IMG/VR virus record: IMGVR_UViG_3300036900_000217
Location: 1-54,073 of that record
Strand: one strand, 5' to 3'
Source: a virus
Length of the DNA: 54,073 bases
Numbering within the stretch: position 1 is the first letter of the stretch; each line of letters opens with the position of its first letter. A model generated the notes under the pieces. The model had not been told where the DNA came from. It saw only the letters and a list, made by a program, of their open reading frames with translations, and made no database searches. The position numbers and the translations under genes were made by a program. This document shows, in pieces, positions 3,289 through 54,073 of the stretch.

Positions 3289-3526
3289 GCACTCAGCGCC
3301 AGCACTCGCCGTCGGCATGCGATGCGTGTTCACGCGCAACATGCACTACCCGCCACTTTCGCGGCCGACGTGCGACGGCGAGGAATGCGTTATCACCGAC
3401 TACGGCATCAATTCGTCGCTCTGGGTGCAATGGGGCGACGGCCGGCAATCGCCCGTGCTGCCGTCCGAGTTAACTCCCATATCCGACAGCGAGTTGCGTG
3501 CTGTCTCGTCTCCGGAGACCCCGTGA
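3281..3526 (+). CDS. Small SH3-like barrel protein, 81 aa
   Basis: Start at ATG 3281 overlaps the end of the previous gene by eight bases. The sequence has the same plan as the gene at 3064: LAVGMRCVFTRN, a Cys-containing loop, LWVQWGDGRQSPVLPSELTP, and a short acidic tail ending in SPETP; the upstream protein ends in a similar SPETQTDG tail. This suggests a tandem duplication of a small barrel protein. The stop overlaps the GTG start of the ATPase gene. Confidence 0.65.
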   Translation: MAEHSAPALAVGMRCVFTRNMHYPPLSRPTCDGEECVITDYGINSSLWVQWGDGRQSPVLPSELTPISDSELRAVSSPETP

Positions 3527-6306
3527 GCCGGCTGACGATCTCCCCGGACTTGTCGCTCCCGACCGAGGCCGTGACCGAGGCGATCGGTTTCCTCGGCCGC
3601 CGCGGCTCGGGGAAGTCGTACGCCGCGCAGAAACTCGCCGAAGAATTCCACCGCGCGCGCGCGCAATTCGTCGTGCTGGACCCCGTCGGCAACTGGTGGG
3701 CGCTTCGCCTTGCCGCGGACGGCAAGGACGCCGGCATTCCGATTCCGGTCTTCGGCGGGCTCCAGGGCGACGTCCCGCTCGAGCCGACGGCGGGGAAGCT
3801 CGTCGCCGACACGATCGTGGACCGGGGCATCTCAGGCGTGATCGACGTCTCCCAGTTCGAGTCCGACGCCGACAAGTCACGGTTCGCCCGGGCGTTCTGT
3901 GAGCGGTTCTACTTCCGCAAGAAGTCCGCGCCGTCCGCGGTGCACGTCTTCCTCGAGGAGTGCCTGACTCCCGACACAGAGATTCTCACCCCGGGCGGCT
4001 GGCAGCGCATTGATCTTCTCTCCGCCGGCCAACAGGTCGTTGCGTACGATCCGACGTCTGGACGGTACGCGAACGAGGCTATCTCGCGCGTAATCGAGAA
4101 GCCGTTCAAAGGCGATCTCGTTCACCTGAAAACAACCTCCATCGATTGCCTCGCGACGCCTGGTCATCGCGCCGTGATGCGGAGGTTTCAGCACGACCCG
4201 AAACGATACAAGCTCTATCCGTGGACTTTCTGCGAAGCGTCAAAGCTCCCTCGCGACTTTCAGATTCCGAGCGGCGAAGCGCCGTACGGCGAAGGCGTTG
4301 ACGTTCCCGACGATCTCCTTCGTACGATTGGCTGGGTGATCACCGATGGCTATTTCAACGACCGGACCCGCGGGTATATCGGTATCCAGCAATCGTCGTC
4401 GACGGTGAAGATGGGCCAACCGGTCGTGGAGACGATGCGGACCGTTCTTGCGCGCCTCGGTTGCGTCGGGGACTACGCGCGAGCGGCGCGCGTCACGTCG
4501 GCTCCTCAGGGACCTGTACGGGGAGTGGAATCTTCGCAGTTTTACCTCGGAGCGAGACTCTCCCGTGCACTTCGCGCACTTCTCGGCGACGAGATTCATC
4601 GCATTCCACGTCAGCTTCTACGGGACTGCACGCGCCGCCAGCTCGAGGTGCTGTACCTCGGCCTCCTTGAGGGCGATGGCACTGCGAAGGCGGGGCGCTG
4701 GTCTCGGTTCTACGCCGGCCTGAGCGAGGGACTCGCCGACGATTTTCAGGAGATCGCGACCAGGCTCGGCGTCCGGACCGTCAAGAAGCTCGTTCCGCAG
4801 AATGGGCAGTGGGTCGTGATGATATCGGAGACTCGCGACCATTGGGTTCGGAATCGCCGCACCTCCGTGGCGTATAGCGGGAACGTCTACTGTGTTACGG
4901 TTCCATCCGGAGCGTTCGTCGCGCGACGCAATGGAACGGTGTTCGTTACCGGGAACTGCCAGGAGTTTGTCCCGCAGAACCCCGGGAAGGACGAGCCGTT
5001 GATGCTCCACGCGTTCACGCGCCTCGCCAAGCTCGGGCGCAACTTCGGGATCGGCATTTCGATGATCTCGCAGCGCCCGCAAGAGGTGAACAAAAAGGTC
5101 CTCAACCTGGCCGAGCTGCTCTTCGTCTTCCAGCTCACCGGCGTGCACGAACGGAAAGCGGTCGAGGCGTGGATCGGTGACAAGGGGATTGACGGCGAGG
5201 ACATCGAAGCGGAGCTGCCGAAGCTCGAACGCGGCCATCCGCACGCGTGGTCGCCGGCGTGGCTCAAGGTCAGCAAGATCATCAGCATCGGACCGAAGTG
5301 GACCTTCGACGCGTCGAGCACGCCGAAACTCGGCGCTCAGGCGTCGCCCGTGCGCGAGTTGTCGCCGATCGATCTCGAGCAGCTCCGCGCGAACATGGCG
5401 ACGGCGATCGAGAAGGCGAAGGCGGACGACCCGAAGGAGCTACGCAAAGAGATCGCGACGCTGCGCACGCAGTTGACGAAGGCGCAACAGACCGCGCGCG
5501 TCGTCGAGAAGACGGTTGTCGACGAGCGGGCGATCAAGCGAGCGGCGGAGGCCGCGGCCTCCGCGATCCTCGTCGACGTCAACCCTCGCCTCGCACACAT
5601 ACGGCGCGCGGTCGCCGGTGTCGCGCGCGCCGCGAAGCCGCTCGTCGAGTCCCTCGCCGCGCTCGAGGGGATCAATCTCGAAGCGATCGCGGCGCCGAAC
5701 GGCAACGGCCACATCCCGCGAACAGAATCTGTCACATCGAACAAAACGCCCCTTCTGTCGCCGGCGAGGGTTACACCGCGTGCAGTCTCGCGCGCGGCGG
5801 CAGTGCAGGCGGAAGGCGTGTCGAAGGCGATGCAGCGGATTCTCGACGGCCTGGCGCTGTTCGAGACGCTCGGCATCTCGCCCGTGAAGCGGGTCAACGC
5901 TGCGTTCATGGCCGGCTACACCGAGAATGGCCACTTCAACAACATGGTCGGCACGCTGCGCACGAGCGGTTACCTCAACTACCCGGGCGACGGCACGATC
6001 GAGCTCACCGACGAAGGCCGAGCAATCGCCGACGCGAGCCGGAACGCGGTCAGCTCGCTTGATGATCTGCACGCCCTGTGGCTCTCGAAGGTCTCCGCGT
6101 CGGAGGGCAAGCTGCTCCGCGTCGTGATCGACCGAGGGCTCGGCAACCCCATCAGCCGGGCCGACCTTGCCGCCGAAACCGGCTACACGGAGAACGGGCA
6201 TTTCAACAACATGGTCGGACACCTTCGATCGCTCGGCGCCTTCGCGTATCCCGGCGACGGGTCGGTCGTCGCGACGGATGTGCTGTTCCCCGAGGGCCTC
6301 GACTGA
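3523..6306 (+). CDS. HerA-like DUF87 ATPase with in-frame intein
   Basis: A 927-residue precursor starting at GTG 3523, which overlaps the preceding TGA; removal of the intein (residues 147-478) leaves 595 residues. Walker A is GRRGSGKS near residues 26-33. The Walker B-type segment VHVFLEE is followed, after the intein, by CQEFVP, matching the HerA motif hhhDEAHxFxP. Downstream are ISMISQRPQEV, a sensor-like element, and a long charged helix. The C-terminus has two similar winged-helix-like units, each with GYTENGHFNNMVG (from 5914 and 6181). HerA-family ATPases are hexameric DNA translocases; in a phage replication block this could act in DNA processing. The exact role is inferred. Confidence 0.85.
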   Translation: MSRLTISPDLSLPTEAVTEAIGFLGRRGSGKSYAAQKLAEEFHRARAQFVVLDPVGNWWALRLAADGKDAGIPIPVFGGLQGDVPLEPTAGKLVADTIVDRGISGVIDVSQFESDADKSRFARAFCERFYFRKKSAPSAVHVFLEECLTPDTEILTPGGWQRIDLLSAGQQVVAYDPTSGRYANEAISRVIEKPFKGDLVHLKTTSIDCLATPGHRAVMRRFQHDPKRYKLYPWTFCEASKLPRDFQIPSGEAPYGEGVDVPDDLLRTIGWVITDGYFNDRTRGYIGIQQSSSTVKMGQPVVETMRTVLARLGCVGDYARAARVTSAPQGPVRGVESSQFYLGARLSRALRALLGDEIHRIPRQLLRDCTRRQLEVLYLGLLEGDGTAKAGRWSRFYAGLSEGLADDFQEIATRLGVRTVKKLVPQNGQWVVMISETRDHWVRNRRTSVAYSGNVYCVTVPSGAFVARRNGTVFVTGNCQEFVPQNPGKDEPLMLHAFTRLAKLGRNFGIGISMISQRPQEVNKKVLNLAELLFVFQLTGVHERKAVEAWIGDKGIDGEDIEAELPKLERGHPHAWSPAWLKVSKIISIGPKWTFDASSTPKLGAQASPVRELSPIDLEQLRANMATAIEKAKADDPKELRKEIATLRTQLTKAQQTARVVEKTVVDERAIKRAAEAAASAILVDVNPRLAHIRRAVAGVARAAKPLVESLAALEGINLEAIAAPNGNGHIPRTESVTSNKTPLLSPARVTPRAVSRAAAVQAEGVSKAMQRILDGLALFETLGISPVKRVNAAFMAGYTENGHFNNMVGTLRTSGYLNYPGDGTIELTDEGRAIADASRNAVSSLDDLHALWLSKVSASEGKLLRVVIDRGLGNPISRADLAAETGYTENGHFNNMVGHLRSLGAFAYPGDGSVVATDVLFPEGLD
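3961..4956 (+). mobile_element. Intein with LAGLIDADG homing endonuclease domain
   Basis: Encodes 332 residues. It begins with Cys (CLTPDTEILTPGGW, block A), has a TxxH block B in CLATPGHRAV, two LAGLIDADG-type helices (LLRTIGWVITDGYF near 4318 and LEVLYLGLLEGDGT near 4645), and ends with block F YCVTVPSGAF and block G VFVTGN before a Cys +1 residue (TGC 4957). The penultimate residue is Gly rather than the usual His, a known but less common variant. The insertion point lies inside the ATPase Walker B region. Boundaries follow from restoring the LEE-CQEFVP host sequence. Confidence 0.93.
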
Positions 6307-43603: not shown

Positions 43604-43798
43604 ATGATCCATATCGTGATCCAGTTCGACGAGACGACGGGCCAAATGAACATCAACGCATCCGATAGTAATAAGATGCGCTGCTGCTGGATCCTTGAAC
43701 TCGCGCGCGATGAAGTAAAGAAACACGAGGACCCGTCGGCTGGGCATATCGCGCTGGTTCCACCCGGCATGCGACTGCCGATGCGCAACGGATCGTGA
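43604..43798 (+). CDS. Small hypothetical protein, 64 aa
   Basis: A compact protein with a strand (MIHIVIQFDETTGQMNINA), a helix (RCCWILELARDEVKKHEDPS) and a short end. The stop overlaps the GTG of the fibre gene. No function recognised. Confidence 0.55.
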   Translation: MIHIVIQFDETTGQMNINASDSNKMRCCWILELARDEVKKHEDPSAGHIALVPPGMRLPMRNGS

Positions 43799-45030
43799 CA
43801 TTTATTGTCGCGGATCGGGTCAAAGAAACGACCGCGTCGACGGGGCCGGGAAACCTCGCCCTCAGCGGCGCCTCGGTCGGCTTCCGCGCATTCTCGTCGG
43901 TCTGCGCGAATAACGACACCGTTGCCTACACGATCTCGTCGGCGGGGGGCGTCGAATGGGAGACGGGCGTCGGCACGTGGCAGGCGGGCAACACGCTCGT
44001 CCGCACGGCCGTCATCGCGTCGTCGAACGCCAACGCGGCCGTCAACTTCTCGGCCGGCACGAAGGACGTCTATCTCACGGTCCTTGCGACGCAGGTGCCG
44101 GACGCGACACGGATTTGTGACGGGCGGCTCACGCTGACGAGCGGTACGCCCGTCACGACCGCCGATGTCACCGGCGCGACGTCGGTCTTTTTCACGCCGA
44201 TGATCGGCGACCAGATTGGGCTCTTCAACGGCGCCGCGTGGCGGCTCTACCAGTTCTCAGAAATCACGATCGCGCTCGGCACGCTCACGTCCGCCAAGAA
44301 CTACGATATCTTCGCGTACGACTCTGGCGGCGTGGTCGGGTGCGTGATCGGGCCCGCGTGGACCTCGGACACGGCGCGCGGATCAGGTGCAGGGACGACA
44401 GAGCTCACGCGGTTGAACGGCGTGTTGGTCAACAACGTCGCCATCTCGGGCGGCCCGGCGGCGAACCAGGGCCGCTATCTCGGCACGTTCCGCACGACGG
44501 CGACGACCACGACGGAAGATTCGGCTGGTGGCGTGACGACGCAGGTCGGCGGGAAACGGTTCTTGTTCAATCAGTACAACCGCGTCCAGCGTGCGCTCTC
44601 GGTGATCGATACCACGGATAACTGGTCCTATACGACCAATACCGTCCGCCAGGCGAATGGTGCGGCAGGGAACCGGGTGGAGTATGTCGTTGGCGAGGCG
44701 GCTGTGATGCTCGACGTAGAGGTGCTCGGGATCGCGTTTATAGCAAACAACTCAGCAAATGCCGCCAAAATGGGTGTAGGCATTGACAGCACGACCACGC
44801 TCTCTGGCACGGTGCAAGGGGGTTACGAAGCGCTCGCGTTTTCTGGCGCCAACGCGGATCCCGGCAATGGCCTCTATGTCCCGTTAAATGGCAACTTTAT
44901 CGGGTATCCAGGTCTCGGCTATCACACCCTCAACTGGAACGAAAAGGGCGCTGACGTGAATTGCACGTTTCTAGGGGATAATGGTGGCGACGGACAACAG
45001 GCCGGCCTGCTCGCAATGCTCATCATCTAA
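43795..45030 (+). CDS. Tail fibre protein
   Basis: A 411-residue protein starting with GTG 43795. The N-terminus (VADRVKETTASTGPGNLALS, FRAFSSVCANNDTVAYTISS) is a known start of phage tail-fibre and appendage proteins. The middle is beta-rich with Asn/Thr repeats. The last 110 residues (from about 44700) have clearly lower GC than the rest, suggesting a recently exchanged receptor-binding tip. The next small gene starts within the stop codon and may be a fibre partner. Confidence 0.75.
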   Translation: MTFIVADRVKETTASTGPGNLALSGASVGFRAFSSVCANNDTVAYTISSAGGVEWETGVGTWQAGNTLVRTAVIASSNANAAVNFSAGTKDVYLTVLATQVPDATRICDGRLTLTSGTPVTTADVTGATSVFFTPMIGDQIGLFNGAAWRLYQFSEITIALGTLTSAKNYDIFAYDSGGVVGCVIGPAWTSDTARGSGAGTTELTRLNGVLVNNVAISGGPAANQGRYLGTFRTTATTTTEDSAGGVTTQVGGKRFLFNQYNRVQRALSVIDTTDNWSYTTNTVRQANGAAGNRVEYVVGEAAVMLDVEVLGIAFIANNSANAAKMGVGIDSTTTLSGTVQGGYEALAFSGANADPGNGLYVPLNGNFIGYPGLGYHTLNWNEKGADVNCTFLGDNGGDGQQAGLLAMLII

Positions 45031-45413: not shown

Positions 45414-46928
45414 ATGCTCGGCTTCCTTCCGATTGCCAGCGCGGCGATCGCGGACGAAGGACTGCCCGCACCGGCGGCCGAGACGTTGATCGTCCTGTAC
45501 CCGGTCGCGCTCACTGATCAGACGATTGTCCTGCGCGACCCGACGGCAGTCCCGGTGTCGATCTCGGTGTCCGCGAGTCAAGGCACGGGCACGGAATCGC
45601 TCGCTGAAGCCGACGCCTCGATCGCCGTCGGCGACGAATCGACGACCGCCGTCGCGGCCATTCTCGCAACGAGCGACGAGAACCTCCTCGGCGTCGCGGC
45701 AACACTAGCGAGCAGTGACGAGAATGTACTCGGCCTTGCCGCCACGCTTCCATCCGGCGACGAGAACATCCTCGGACTCGCAACGGCCCTCGCCACAGGC
45801 GATGAGTCGCTAGGCGCCATCGTGGCGAGCTTGGTGACAGCGGACGAGTCGCTGATCGGCGTGGGCGCGACTCTGGCTGAGGCGGACGAGAACCTGGTCG
45901 GCATCGTCGGCTCGGACGCCGTCGCGGACGAGAACCTGATCGGCCTGGGATCGCCGTTGGCGACTGGCGACGAGTCGTCTGTTCCTGTCTCAGCAACACT
46001 TCCGTCCTCCGACGAGAATCTTGTCGGACTCGCCGCGGCGCTCGCCACGGCAGACGAGGATCTGCTGGGCGTCGCGGGGTCGCTCGCCAGCGCGGACGAG
46101 AACCTCGTCGGCATCACGTCGTCCTTGCTCGTCGGCGACGAGTCGCTTGGCACTGTCGCCGTACAGCAAACCCAACAGACGGCTACGGAATCGCTCACGG
46201 GGCTCGCGCCGTCGCTGGCGTCGTCGGACGAGTCGCTGACCGGCCTCGCGACGACGCTTGGCTTGAGCGACGAAAACACGCTCGGCGTGTCCGCGTCGAA
46301 AGCAACGGCCGACGAGAATCTTCTCGGCGTCGCGGGATCATTGGCGATCGGCGACGAGTCGAAAGGCACGCCGTCGGCGACCATGGCGACGGGGGACGAG
46401 TCGATCGGTCCCGTTGCGGCGACGCTCGCGAGCGCGGATGAGTCGCTGATTGGGGTCACGGCCTCGCGACTTTCGAGCGACGAGAATCTGCTCGGCGTCT
46501 CGGGCTCACAAGGCACCGCCGATGAATGGGCGATGGTGCTCGCCGCGCTGCAACTCATCAGCGACGAATCGGCGGGAACGCTGTCGGCCATCGCCGCCGC
46601 GGGCACCGAATCGCTGGTCGGGCTCCAGGCATCGCAGTCGAGCGGCGACGAATGGCTGATTGGTGTCGCGGCGATCCTGGCCGCGGCACACGAGTCGCTG
46701 GCCTCGCCGCTCACCTATTGTCTGATCAGCGCCGTCACGCAACTGTTGGCGACGGTCACGGCGACGCGCGTCGAGCCGACCGTCTCGGCGACGAACATCA
46801 CGCCCGCCGTACCGTTCACGCGCCTTTCGCCTGAATTGCTCGCCACCTGCATCACGCCGAATCCCGTCGCGACCGCGCTGTCGCCGTCCGTCGACGCCAC
46901 CCGACTCATTGAGGAGCTCGTCCCATGA
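45414..46928 (+). CDS. Protein of 26 tandem 14-residue DEN-L-G repeats
   Basis: A 504-residue protein. Residues 60-425 consist of 26 head-to-tail units with consensus DE[NS]LxG[VL]AATLA[ST]x; 25 units are 14 residues long and one is 16. Examples are DENLLGVAATLASS, DENVLGLAATLPSG and DENLVGLAAALATA. DEN alternates with DES. Each unit ends in a small turn and contains a hydrophobic strand, suggesting a beta-solenoid or beta-roll-like stalk. A hydrophobic leader (residues 1-30) and a short C-terminal domain with ATRVEPTVSATNITPAVPFT flank the array. Context suggests a virion appendage. I know no family with this repeat. Confidence 0.75.
   Translation: MLGFLPIASAAIADEGLPAPAAETLIVLYPVALTDQTIVLRDPTAVPVSISVSASQGTGTESLAEADASIAVGDESTTAVAAILATSDENLLGVAATLASSDENVLGLAATLPSGDENILGLATALATGDESLGAIVASLVTADESLIGVGATLAEADENLVGIVGSDAVADENLIGLGSPLATGDESSVPVSATLPSSDENLVGLAAALATADEDLLGVAGSLASADENLVGITSSLLVGDESLGTVAVQQTQQTATESLTGLAPSLASSDESLTGLATTLGLSDENTLGVSASKATADENLLGVAGSLAIGDESKGTPSATMATGDESIGPVAATLASADESLIGVTASRLSSDENLLGVSGSQGTADEWAMVLAALQLISDESAGTLSAIAAAGTESLVGLQASQSSGDEWLIGVAAILAAAHESLASPLTYCLISAVTQLLATVTATRVEPTVSATNITPAVPFTRLSPELLATCITPNPVATALSPSVDATRLIEELVP
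45591..46688 (+). repeat. 42-bp coding repeat array (26 units)
   Basis: The DNA has a period of 42 bases because of the 14-residue protein repeat. Units are diverged at the DNA level with GACGAG or GACGAA at most starts. The one irregular unit, with two extra codons, ends near 46187. Variation is mostly in the strand residues, not in the Asp-Glu turn. Confidence 0.85.
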
Positions 46929-47326
46929 CCACAACGCCGACGCCATCGGTCCACGTGCTGTCACCGTCGAACGATCTGGTCTACACGTTCGTCCTCGAGG
47001 AGGTGGATCCCGCGACCTTCGTGCTCGGGCCAGCGACGACGGGCGCTGTGACGTGTTTCCTGTCGACGTCGAACCTGTCGAATGCGACAGCGATCACCGG
47101 CCTGACGCGCCCCGCCGTCTACATCGGCGGCGCGAACGGGTATCCGGACGGGACGTGGGGCGTCGAGTTCGATGCCGACGACCTGACGCCAGCGCTGCTC
47201 CAGCCGATTTTCGAGGTGTCGCCCGCGCCGACGCCGTACCTGATGATCGTCCGCGGCGGTGCCGTGCGGCGCTACATCACGCTCAAATACCAGAAGGCGC
47301 TCAAGGCGGAGCTGACGCAGGTCTAG
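46925..47326 (+). CDS. Structural protein, 133 aa
   Basis: ATGA overlap with the repeat-protein gene. Beta-rich (LSPSNDLVYTFVLEEVDPAT, TTGAVTCFLSTSNLSNATAI, PDGTWGVEFDADDLTPALLQ) with a basic C-terminal helix (RRYITLKYQKALKAELTQV). It may attach the repeat protein to the virion. It converges on the leftward gene at 47323 with overlapping ends. Confidence 0.6.
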   Translation: MTTTPTPSVHVLSPSNDLVYTFVLEEVDPATFVLGPATTGAVTCFLSTSNLSNATAITGLTRPAVYIGGANGYPDGTWGVEFDADDLTPALLQPIFEVSPAPTPYLMIVRGGAVRRYITLKYQKALKAELTQV

Positions 47327-47847: not shown

Positions 47848-48165
47848 TCACTTCTCCGCGAACGCGCCCCGCTCCATCCAGAGGTCGACCGTCTCCCCGA
47901 CGCGCCGGACCTGAACCGCCGACGAGTCGATCCGCTCGATGAGCATCGGCGTCCCGCGGGCCACGGGCCGACACCCGCCGTGCGAACTGAGCGAGTCACG
48001 GCTCGCGCAGCCGAATGCCGCGGCGGTCGTGTTCATGATCGCGCCCTCGACAAAGCCGTCCACGGGCGGCCCCTCGGCGGACGGCGCGCCACGGTTGCGG
48101 ACGCGGGCGAGCACGGCGAGAGCTATCACGGCGACGATGGCGAGAGAGATCCAGAGGCGGCGCAC
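47848..48165 (-). CDS. Membrane-anchored protein on the reverse strand, 105 aa
   Basis: Starts with GTG 48165, sharing its G with the TAG of the upstream lipoprotein gene. Residues about 4-20 (LWISLAIVAVIALAVLARV) anchor it in the membrane or act as a signal; the rest has two Cys (FGCASRDSLSSHGGCRPV) and a strand-rich end. Likely co-expressed with the lipoprotein. Unknown role. Confidence 0.65.
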   Translation of the reverse strand: MRRLWISLAIVAVIALAVLARVRNRGAPSAEGPPVDGFVEGAIMNTTAAAFGCASRDSLSSHGGCRPVARGTPMLIERIDSSAVQVRRVGETVDLWMERGAFAEK

Positions 48166-48584
48166 TACCAGACCGCGATGATGTAGTAGGCTTCGTTCGC
48201 GATCCCGTTGATGAGCGTGACGCCGGGCGTCGCGCTGCCGATCCCCGTGAGACCGCAGAACACGAAGGGGCTATTCGATGGCGTCTGCGCCACCGCGAGC
48301 CACGTGATCCGATCCGTGCTCACGTAACAGGCGACGACGGGCACCTTATTCCCAGCGACCGACGCCGCGGGCAACGGAACAGAGACGGAGCCGGTCCCGG
48401 ACAGGTTGCCCGTGAAGTCGGCGCGATTCGTTGAGCCTGCTGGACCGGACGGCCCCTGCGGGCCCGCGGGACCGTTCGGACCTTGCGCACCTGCCGGACC
48501 TTGCGGCCCCGTCGCGCCGTCCGCGCCCTTGCAGCCGAGTACGATTCCGAGACCGAACAGCGTGACAGCTTGGCGGGCGCGCAT
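48165..48584 (-). CDS. Collagen-like lipoprotein
   Basis: A 139-residue protein; ATG 48584 has GAGGA 8 bases upstream, while upstream ATGs have none. The N-terminus is a lipoprotein signal ([12 protein letters not shown], Cys18 as lipid attachment). Gly20-Gly50 is ten Gly-X-Y collagen triplets rich in Pro ([20 protein letters not shown]). The C-terminal 85 residues form a beta-rich head with [20 protein letters not shown] and a Cys pair. Collagen triplets can form a trimeric stalk. In a leftward cassette of a rightward genome it fits a moron gene altering the host surface. Confidence 0.8.
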
Positions 48585-48611
48585 GGTTGAGATCCTCATC
48601 GTGGTGAGAAG

Positions 48612-48627
48612 ATTAGAGCGGTCTAAT
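48612..48627. promoter_or_regulatory. Palindromic operator-like site upstream of the lipoprotein
   Basis: ATTAGA (48612-48617) and TCTAAT (48622-48627) are inverted copies with a 4-base centre. It lies 28 bases upstream of the leftward lipoprotein start and in front of the rightward gene at 48707. It is a candidate repressor site or promoter element; no convincing -35/-10 pair was found. Confidence 0.5.
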
Positions 48628-48706
48628 AATTGGGCTGCTGTAACAGGACGTTGCAGAACGCTGAGGGTGGCCCCATTTTCGTCGGCCTCAACGGAGGACA
48701 TCTGAT

Positions 48707-53653: not shown

Positions 53654-54073
53654 ATGACGCTCGCCACGGCATGTCCAAAGCCGGCCAAGCGTGAGAAGTC
53701 GCCGCGGAAGCCGATGAAGCGCTCGCGAATTGCGGCGAAGAAGCGGAACGCCTCGGACTTCGCGCGCATTTACGGCAGCAAGGCACGGGTGCGCTGGATC
53801 AAGGAGCAAGACTGCTGGTGGTGCGGGCGCGCGGCGACAGAGGAGATGCCATCCGACAACGCGCACACGGTGAACGGTGGCAAGAGTCGCAAGGCCGACT
53901 TCTACACGATTTTGCCGCTCTGCCGCGCGCATCATCGGGCGTACGACAAGTACGAGCCGCCGTTTCACAGCGCCACGCTCCGCCGCATCGCGTTTCAAGC
54001 CGCCGCCCAGGTCGAATCACAGTGGCAACGAGTCAAGCACGTTCTCGCTGGCGAGTCTGTCGGCCTCCCCTCT
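53654..54073 (+). CDS. HNH endonuclease (crosses the circular junction)
   Basis: A 144-residue protein on the circular genome: it begins at ATG 53654, passes the window end and stops at 140-142. The zinc-HNH core has Cys54/Cys57 (DCWWCGR), His71 (NAHTVNGG), Cys90 and His93-His94 (LPLCRAHHRAY), the pattern of compact phage HNH or DUF968-like nucleases. The N-terminus is very basic (PKPAKREKSPRKPMKRSRIA), fitting DNA binding. It lies in the same operon as the genes before it and those at 144 onward. Confidence 0.85.
   Translation, partial: MTLATACPKPAKREKSPRKPMKRSRIAAKKRNASDFARIYGSKARVRWIKEQDCWWCGRAATEEMPSDNAHTVNGGKSRKADFYTILPLCRAHHRAYDKYEPPFHSATLRRIAFQAAAQVESQWQRVKHVLAGESVGLPS
53947..54073. 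repeat. Right copy of the 127-bp terminal direct repeat
   Basis: Identical to bases 1-127. It lies inside the HNH gene that continues in frame at base 128, so the two copies are one site in the circular molecule. Confidence 0.95.

Follow-up and report, generated by a model that had tools for sequence, protein, structure and literature searches.

How far a phage reaches and which hosts it can use depend on its long fibres, for which to our knowledge few repeat folds are known. The YadA head repeat has 14 residues per unit, whilst the triple beta-spiral of the adenovirus fibre type is a trimer in which every repeat of approximately 15 residues contributes strands and a Gly/Pro turn. The stem of the phi29 head fibre gp8.5 is composed of repeated short helices that form a trimeric helix-turn-helix supercoil (PMC6542822). 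The subject of this analysis is a tandem-repeat protein encoded in the tail-fibre module of a tailed phage. Its principal array of 14-residue units is real and new as a sequence, and arrays of its kind turn up repeatedly in phage tail modules, although the libraries used have no family name for them.

Arrays of 14-residue units are also carried by tail proteins of other phages. The J-like tail proteins of Aeromonas Casjensviridae, including those of BUCT551 (QOI69663.1) and vB_C4 (XLZ95813.1), have arrays of exactly this period (PYGLRPGVIADLTA; PYGLRSTVQAELLP) which, unlike the array described here, extend a J-like hub protein (Phage-tail_3) at its C-terminus; in sequence they are unrelated to the array described here. 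In KVP40-like Vibrio phages (QD01, 1.081.O) a 14-residue array, likewise unrelated in sequence, is fused to the C-terminus of the tail protein gp15 (homologous to PDB 4huh and 3j2m). As the Aeromonas and Vibrio arrays came from loci selected for period 14, they show the existence of such arrays on tail proteins and not a preference for period 14. Two J-like C-termini of Aeromonas Casjensviridae with 18 and 24 units (L147 2827-7143 and L148 1389-5969) are encoded by genes annotated merely as tail or hypothetical protein, and L104 7862-11536 (minus strand) encodes a tail-type protein of 1,225 residues that carries a long array of 14-residue units of the DEYVVRNVVTSDLA type. A tail gene at L163 9294-10592 contains YadA-head-like 14-residue repeats of the SVAIG type. 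The 42-bp repeats of a Vibrio gp15 array (L189 2799-2992, corresponding to MG592456.1 238315-238508) are annotated as CRISPR spacers and look like coding repeats. No description of 14-residue repeats in phage tails was found in the literature, in a search that lay mostly outside subscription journals.

The window, i.e. the whole stretch of 54,073 nucleotides that was analysed, is one contig (G000 contig C71) in a 5.37-Mb bacterial genome bin. It encodes the markers of a tailed phage, namely terminase, portal, head morphogenesis, major head and Dit-like proteins. Its first 127 bases (positions 1-127) are identical to its last (53947-54073), an exact 127-bp identity of the window ends, and it probably represents an entire circular phage genome, 53,946 bases in length. 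The features of the repeat gene and its surroundings are as follows.

43795..45030, plus strand: tail-spike/tail-fibre-like gene, 411 residues, by tblastn to the tail spike of Pseudanabaena phage Pam5
45030..45404, plus strand: small gene directly upstream of the repeat gene, 124 residues, with a homologue in L193
45414..46928, plus strand: tandem-repeat protein gene of the tail-fibre module, 504 residues; open reading frame with ATG at 45414 and stop at 46926-46928
45414..45455, plus strand: N-terminal 14-residue signature, MLGFLPIASAAIAD
45591..46730, plus strand: array 1 (residues 60-439), 27 units of 14 residues, the last unit degenerate
46137..46184, plus strand: the sole 16-residue unit of array 1, DESLGTVAVQQTQQTA, residues 242-257
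46752..46913, plus strand: array 2, six units of nine residues, residues 447-500, by lag-9 identities
46925..47326, plus strand: small gene, 133 residues, candidate adaptor by position only; its start overlaps the stop of the repeat gene

The earlier note on this DNA had placed the repeat gene next to fibre genes, and this is correct: the gene forms a tight operon with the tail-spike-like gene within the tail-fibre module. The 411-residue product of the latter is 35.6% identical to the Pam5 tail spike (E 2e-36, tblastn), and its residues 1-100 match proteins that are annotated as tail fibre. The repeat gene starts nine bases past the end of the 124-residue gene, whose homologue in L193 (52% identity) adjoins another repeat protein. 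The downstream gene of 133 residues is a possible adaptor by its position only, which is that of an L193 gene matching Gp77 (in podophage GP4 the adaptor between fibre and tail). It has no Pfam match to the Gp77 family (PF23148) at E 5, no match to any other family was found, and hhalign detected no homology to the small genes of L166, L179 and L193. Among the genes at the downstream position only the 108-residue gene of L193 matches PF23148 (E 1.5e-7).

Array 1 starts its units at residues 60, 74 and so on to 426, all 27 following the pattern [D/T/H]-E-[N/S/W/D], and the spacings are all 14 with the exception of one of 16, which reflects a two-residue insertion. The 26 clear units cover residues 60-425 (366 residues), in exact agreement with the earlier note, which made no mention of the degenerate unit 27 (HESLASPLTYCLIS) or of the six-unit array 2. 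Position 2 of the unit is an invariant Glu (27/27) and position 1 is Asp in 23 of the 27; position 7 is Val, Leu or Ile in 24 and position 6 is Gly in 17, with hydrophobic positions 4, 7 and 11 conserved across the units. The array is net acidic and rich in Ala, Ser and Gly, with scattered Pro. Identity at a lag of 14 residues is 0.31, against a maximum of 0.14 among 1000 shuffles, and is 0.27 at both lag 28 and lag 42. Two regularities proposed previously do not stand. The order of DEN and DES units (SSNNNSSNNSNDNSSSNNSSSNWSSWS) contains 11 runs where 12.7 are expected, which speaks against alternation, and a two-unit super-repeat is rejected by the same runs test and by the lag identities, lag 28 not rising above lag 14.

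Mean identity between units at codon positions 1, 2 and 3 is 0.52, 0.58 and 0.41, and Tandem Repeats Finder recovers 2.4 copies only from the DNA of array 1. Because the third codon position is the least conserved and neighbouring units are not closer in sequence than distant ones, array 1 consists of old copies that are maintained by selection at the protein level. That neighbouring units are no closer than distant ones also led to the rejection of a recent expansion at the DNA level.

Array 2 lies in the C-terminal part of the repeat protein. Its units (TVTATRVEP, TVSATNITP, AVPFTRLSP, ELLATCITP, NPVATALSP and SVDATRLIE) give 17 lag-9 identities in 65 residues, a value not equalled in 5000 shuffles. 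The repeat proteins of L047, L099, L162 and L163, read by eye, end in short repeats of approximately 9-12 residues (SASWVDDRTI in L047) which resemble array 2 in layout.

It had been claimed that no described family has the consensus of array 1, and searches of Pfam, PHROGs, the PDB and phage records agree. The best Pfam match of the repeat protein has an E value of 0.07 and the best PHROGs match one of 0.05, neither amounting to family membership; no PDB sequence scores better than E 0.69, and tblastn against 50,697 phage records yields no relative. None of these searches clearly linked the protein to a known repeat family. The DEN unit was found nowhere beyond the window in 98 relatives of the host and 395 genomes of its phylum, and a peptide-pattern scan of IMG/VR for the unit returns the window only. 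A DNA pattern for two DE[NS]LxG units has a single further match in IMG/VR, L099 (IMGVR_UViG_3300010371_000081), and in 84,980 genomes the same pattern gives only chance or simple-repeat matches. A wide spread of the DEN unit is accordingly rejected, since in these collections only the window and L099 were found to carry it. An initial, looser 42-bp GAYGAR pattern returned mostly acidic low-complexity sequence and itself selects period 14, so that how often 14-residue arrays turn up at those loci says nothing about 14 being special. L027 and L091 were also rejected as relatives, as their DESL units match the profile but lie in the opposite-strand frame of another array.

The L099 array is homologous to array 1, with a profile E value of 1.4e-17 among 8,342 frames and a BLASTP E value of 2e-18, and array 1 is nearly private in sequence, L099 being the one true relative found. 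The L099 product shares the 14-residue DEN unit with the window protein, but has 15 recognised units, lacks the MLGF start and is fused to a hydrolase. Its DEN units come after a GDSL/SGNH hydrolase domain that falls just short of the curated Pfam cut-off (E 4e-7), and behind them lies a short C-terminal domain that weakly matches phrog_1084, such that hydrolase, array and C-terminal domain make up one tail-type polypeptide. Pro is frequent at position 14 of its units.

The N-terminus of the window protein is shared more widely than its array. A profile was made from the first 14 residues of five proteins (L166, L162, L157, L163 and L160) picked by eye for their starts, and against it the window protein ranks sixth of 4,108 distinct ORF starts, a rank which is descriptive and not a blind test since the five were chosen by eye, all of them from loci that share a neighbouring gene. 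Above it are four of the training proteins and the repeat protein of L156; the start of L160 had been edited by dropping one residue and is hence absent from the ranking. In a leave-one-out comparison the training proteins rank 4 to 6. The signature, only 14 residues long, has the form M-[LF]-G-F-x-P-h-[AS]-S-x-x-[IF], which the window start fits, and the window protein combines it with an in-frame array and a nearby tail-fibre gene of the 43795-45030 family, although the training loci were chosen for a neighbour of this family and the neighbourhood is therefore not an independent criterion. The high-scoring signature proteins all have arrays, with periods of 14 (window and L166), 22 (L162 and L163), 20 (L157 and L160) and 18 (L156, the weakest). 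Unlike the window protein, the last five combine the same start and a place in a tail-fibre module with a period other than 14, which implies that the start is conserved and the array is not. Lower-scoring matches include hub-type proteins without arrays, so the signature may be a more general tail element.

One such case is L166 (IMGVR_UViG_3300045970_000086), which has a homologue of the 411-residue gene (58% over residues 7-101) and, downstream of it, a protein of 359 residues that starts MLGFAPLSSTPIS and contains about 19 units of the type TSTRATTWNVKAAV. Like the window protein it has the start signature, the same kind of place in the tail-fibre module and 14-residue units, again with two-residue insertions. 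Unlike array 1, however, the L166 array is rich in Trp, Thr and Arg, is quite different and unrelated in sequence, and is not followed by a second array of nine-residue units; the hydrophobic profiles of the two arrays show a weak similarity (r 0.62, P 0.1). L178 and L179 have 14-residue arrays of related TSTRATTWNVKAAV units, with two-residue insertions also in L178, but neither the start signature nor a nine-residue second array was found in them. In L193, which has homologues of both the 411-residue and the 124-residue gene, the corresponding place is taken by a repeat protein of period 23, followed by the 108-residue Gp77-type protein. The arrays found in this kind of neighbourhood have no sequence in common.

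Array 1 had been suggested to form a rigid solenoid, for which structure prediction gives no firm answer: two single-chain AlphaFold2 runs are of low confidence and disagree. The first, on the full protein (mean pLDDT 38), has strands at the beginning of the array and helices towards its end, and the second, on eight units, gives a single helix (pLDDT 62, pTM 0.21). A structure search with the model of the first run returned no PDB match at E 0.001, as is expected for a low-confidence model. Hydrophobic spectra were computed on aligned units, whole-array spectra being blurred by the insertion, and are mixed for array 1 and strand-like for L166, L178, L179, L076 and gp15. It is a real possibility, if short of probable, that the array forms a beta-structured trimeric shaft in which each unit would be a strand pair or coil, akin to the left-handed YadA-head beta-roll or the triple beta-spiral. 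The first run predicts strands at unit positions 4-13 of units 3 and 4, albeit at a pLDDT of about 50 and contradicted by the helix of the second run, and in its hydrophobic positions 5, 7 and 11 the unit resembles the strand-like arrays of L166, L178, L179 and L076. The YadA head repeat (PF05658) matches the period and a YadA-head-like array is present in the tail gene neighbouring the L163 repeat gene, but array 1 has no SVAIG motif, the repeat protein scores 10.8 bits (E 0.67) against a Pfam cut-off of 25 and is not a member, the genome search gave no YadA match, and the profiles of array 1 and the YadA-like array do not agree significantly (P 0.58). This reading concerns the fold and is compatible with the functional reading given below.

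It is fairly unlikely that the shaft is instead alpha-helical, each unit forming a short helix from D1 to A12 with E2 near its start and the chains supercoiled in a gp8.5-like manner. The helix of the second run, the helix-like spacing of Leu4, Val7 and Leu11, a capping box that S/T13 and E2 could form, and the hydrophobic variance of L099, which has its largest share at 3.5 residues, are consistent with such a shaft. It is difficult to reconcile with Gly6 in 17 of the 27 units, the scattered Pro and the frequent Pro14 of L099, and the helix comes from a single model. phi29 gp8.5 is likewise a phage fibre of short repeated helices (PMC6542822), but is a fibre of the capsid and not of the tail and has no clear 14-residue period. 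The low confidence of both predictions, the acidic, Ala/Ser/Gly-rich composition and the absence of common sequence among arrays of this neighbourhood would also suit a linker or decoy surface that is flexible, mostly unstructured and lacks a defined fold, so that only length or acidity matters. This is distinctly unlikely in view of the strict register of 26 units with one insertion only, the invariant E2, the conserved hydrophobic positions 4, 7 and 11 and the low conservation of third codon positions. Both the rigid solenoid and metal binding by array 1, as put forward in the earlier note, are putative and unproven. Rows of metal-binding acidic residues cannot be the general function of the group, because proteins with the same start have arrays with few acidic residues; the L162 repeat protein has only three Asp or Glu after residue 15.

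With respect to function, we consider it reasonably likely that the repeat protein is a structural part of the tail-fibre/tail-tip module, presumably present in the virion, and that it consists of an N-terminal anchor, a swappable spacer or shaft array and a short C-terminal array. It probably serves the attachment apparatus as an exchangeable spacer or stalk. The conserved N-terminal segment (MLGFxPhuSxxh) would dock on a common component of the tail or fibre; the 27 units of array 1 would provide a long, possibly trimeric, spacer or shaft that may be exchanged between phages for one of different sequence and even different period, and the six units of array 2 may connect to, or cap, its far end. 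The protein could also function outside the virion, for instance as a cytoplasmic factor that helps the neighbouring fibre to assemble, and the small genes of the operon are indeed chaperone-sized. This is very unlikely, as L099 fuses a homologous array to hydrolase and C-terminal domains in a polypeptide of the tail-fibre type, and other 14-residue arrays are fused to structural proteins of the tail.

More tentatively, and with considerable doubt, the shared start may mark an unrecognised tail-fibre cassette that occurs in several kinds of tailed phage, in which a docking start is combined with a wholesale-replaced array of period 14, 18, 20 or 22. If so, the DEN array would count among several fibre folds that structural libraries still lack, and array replacement would alter reach or binding with the docking end untouched. 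None of the tested arrays has a named Pfam or PHROGs family, and the start is kept where the whole array changes between phages. Should the start be a docking element, it would mark a shared point of attachment by which fibres of this kind could be traced in genomes that lack annotation, each array being a compact new target for structure work.

Two further observations concern other parts of the window. A short collagen-like protein (GPAGPQGP) encoded at 48165-48701 (minus strand) matches many tail-fibre PHROGs. A likely intein with a LAGLIDADG-type endonuclease domain is located at 3961-4956 (residues 214-545 of the open reading frame 3322-6306), with candidate boundaries that start at CLTPDTEIL and end at VFVTGN before a Cys; its candidate host protein is a HerA/DUF87-type ATPase with an adjacent VFLEE motif.
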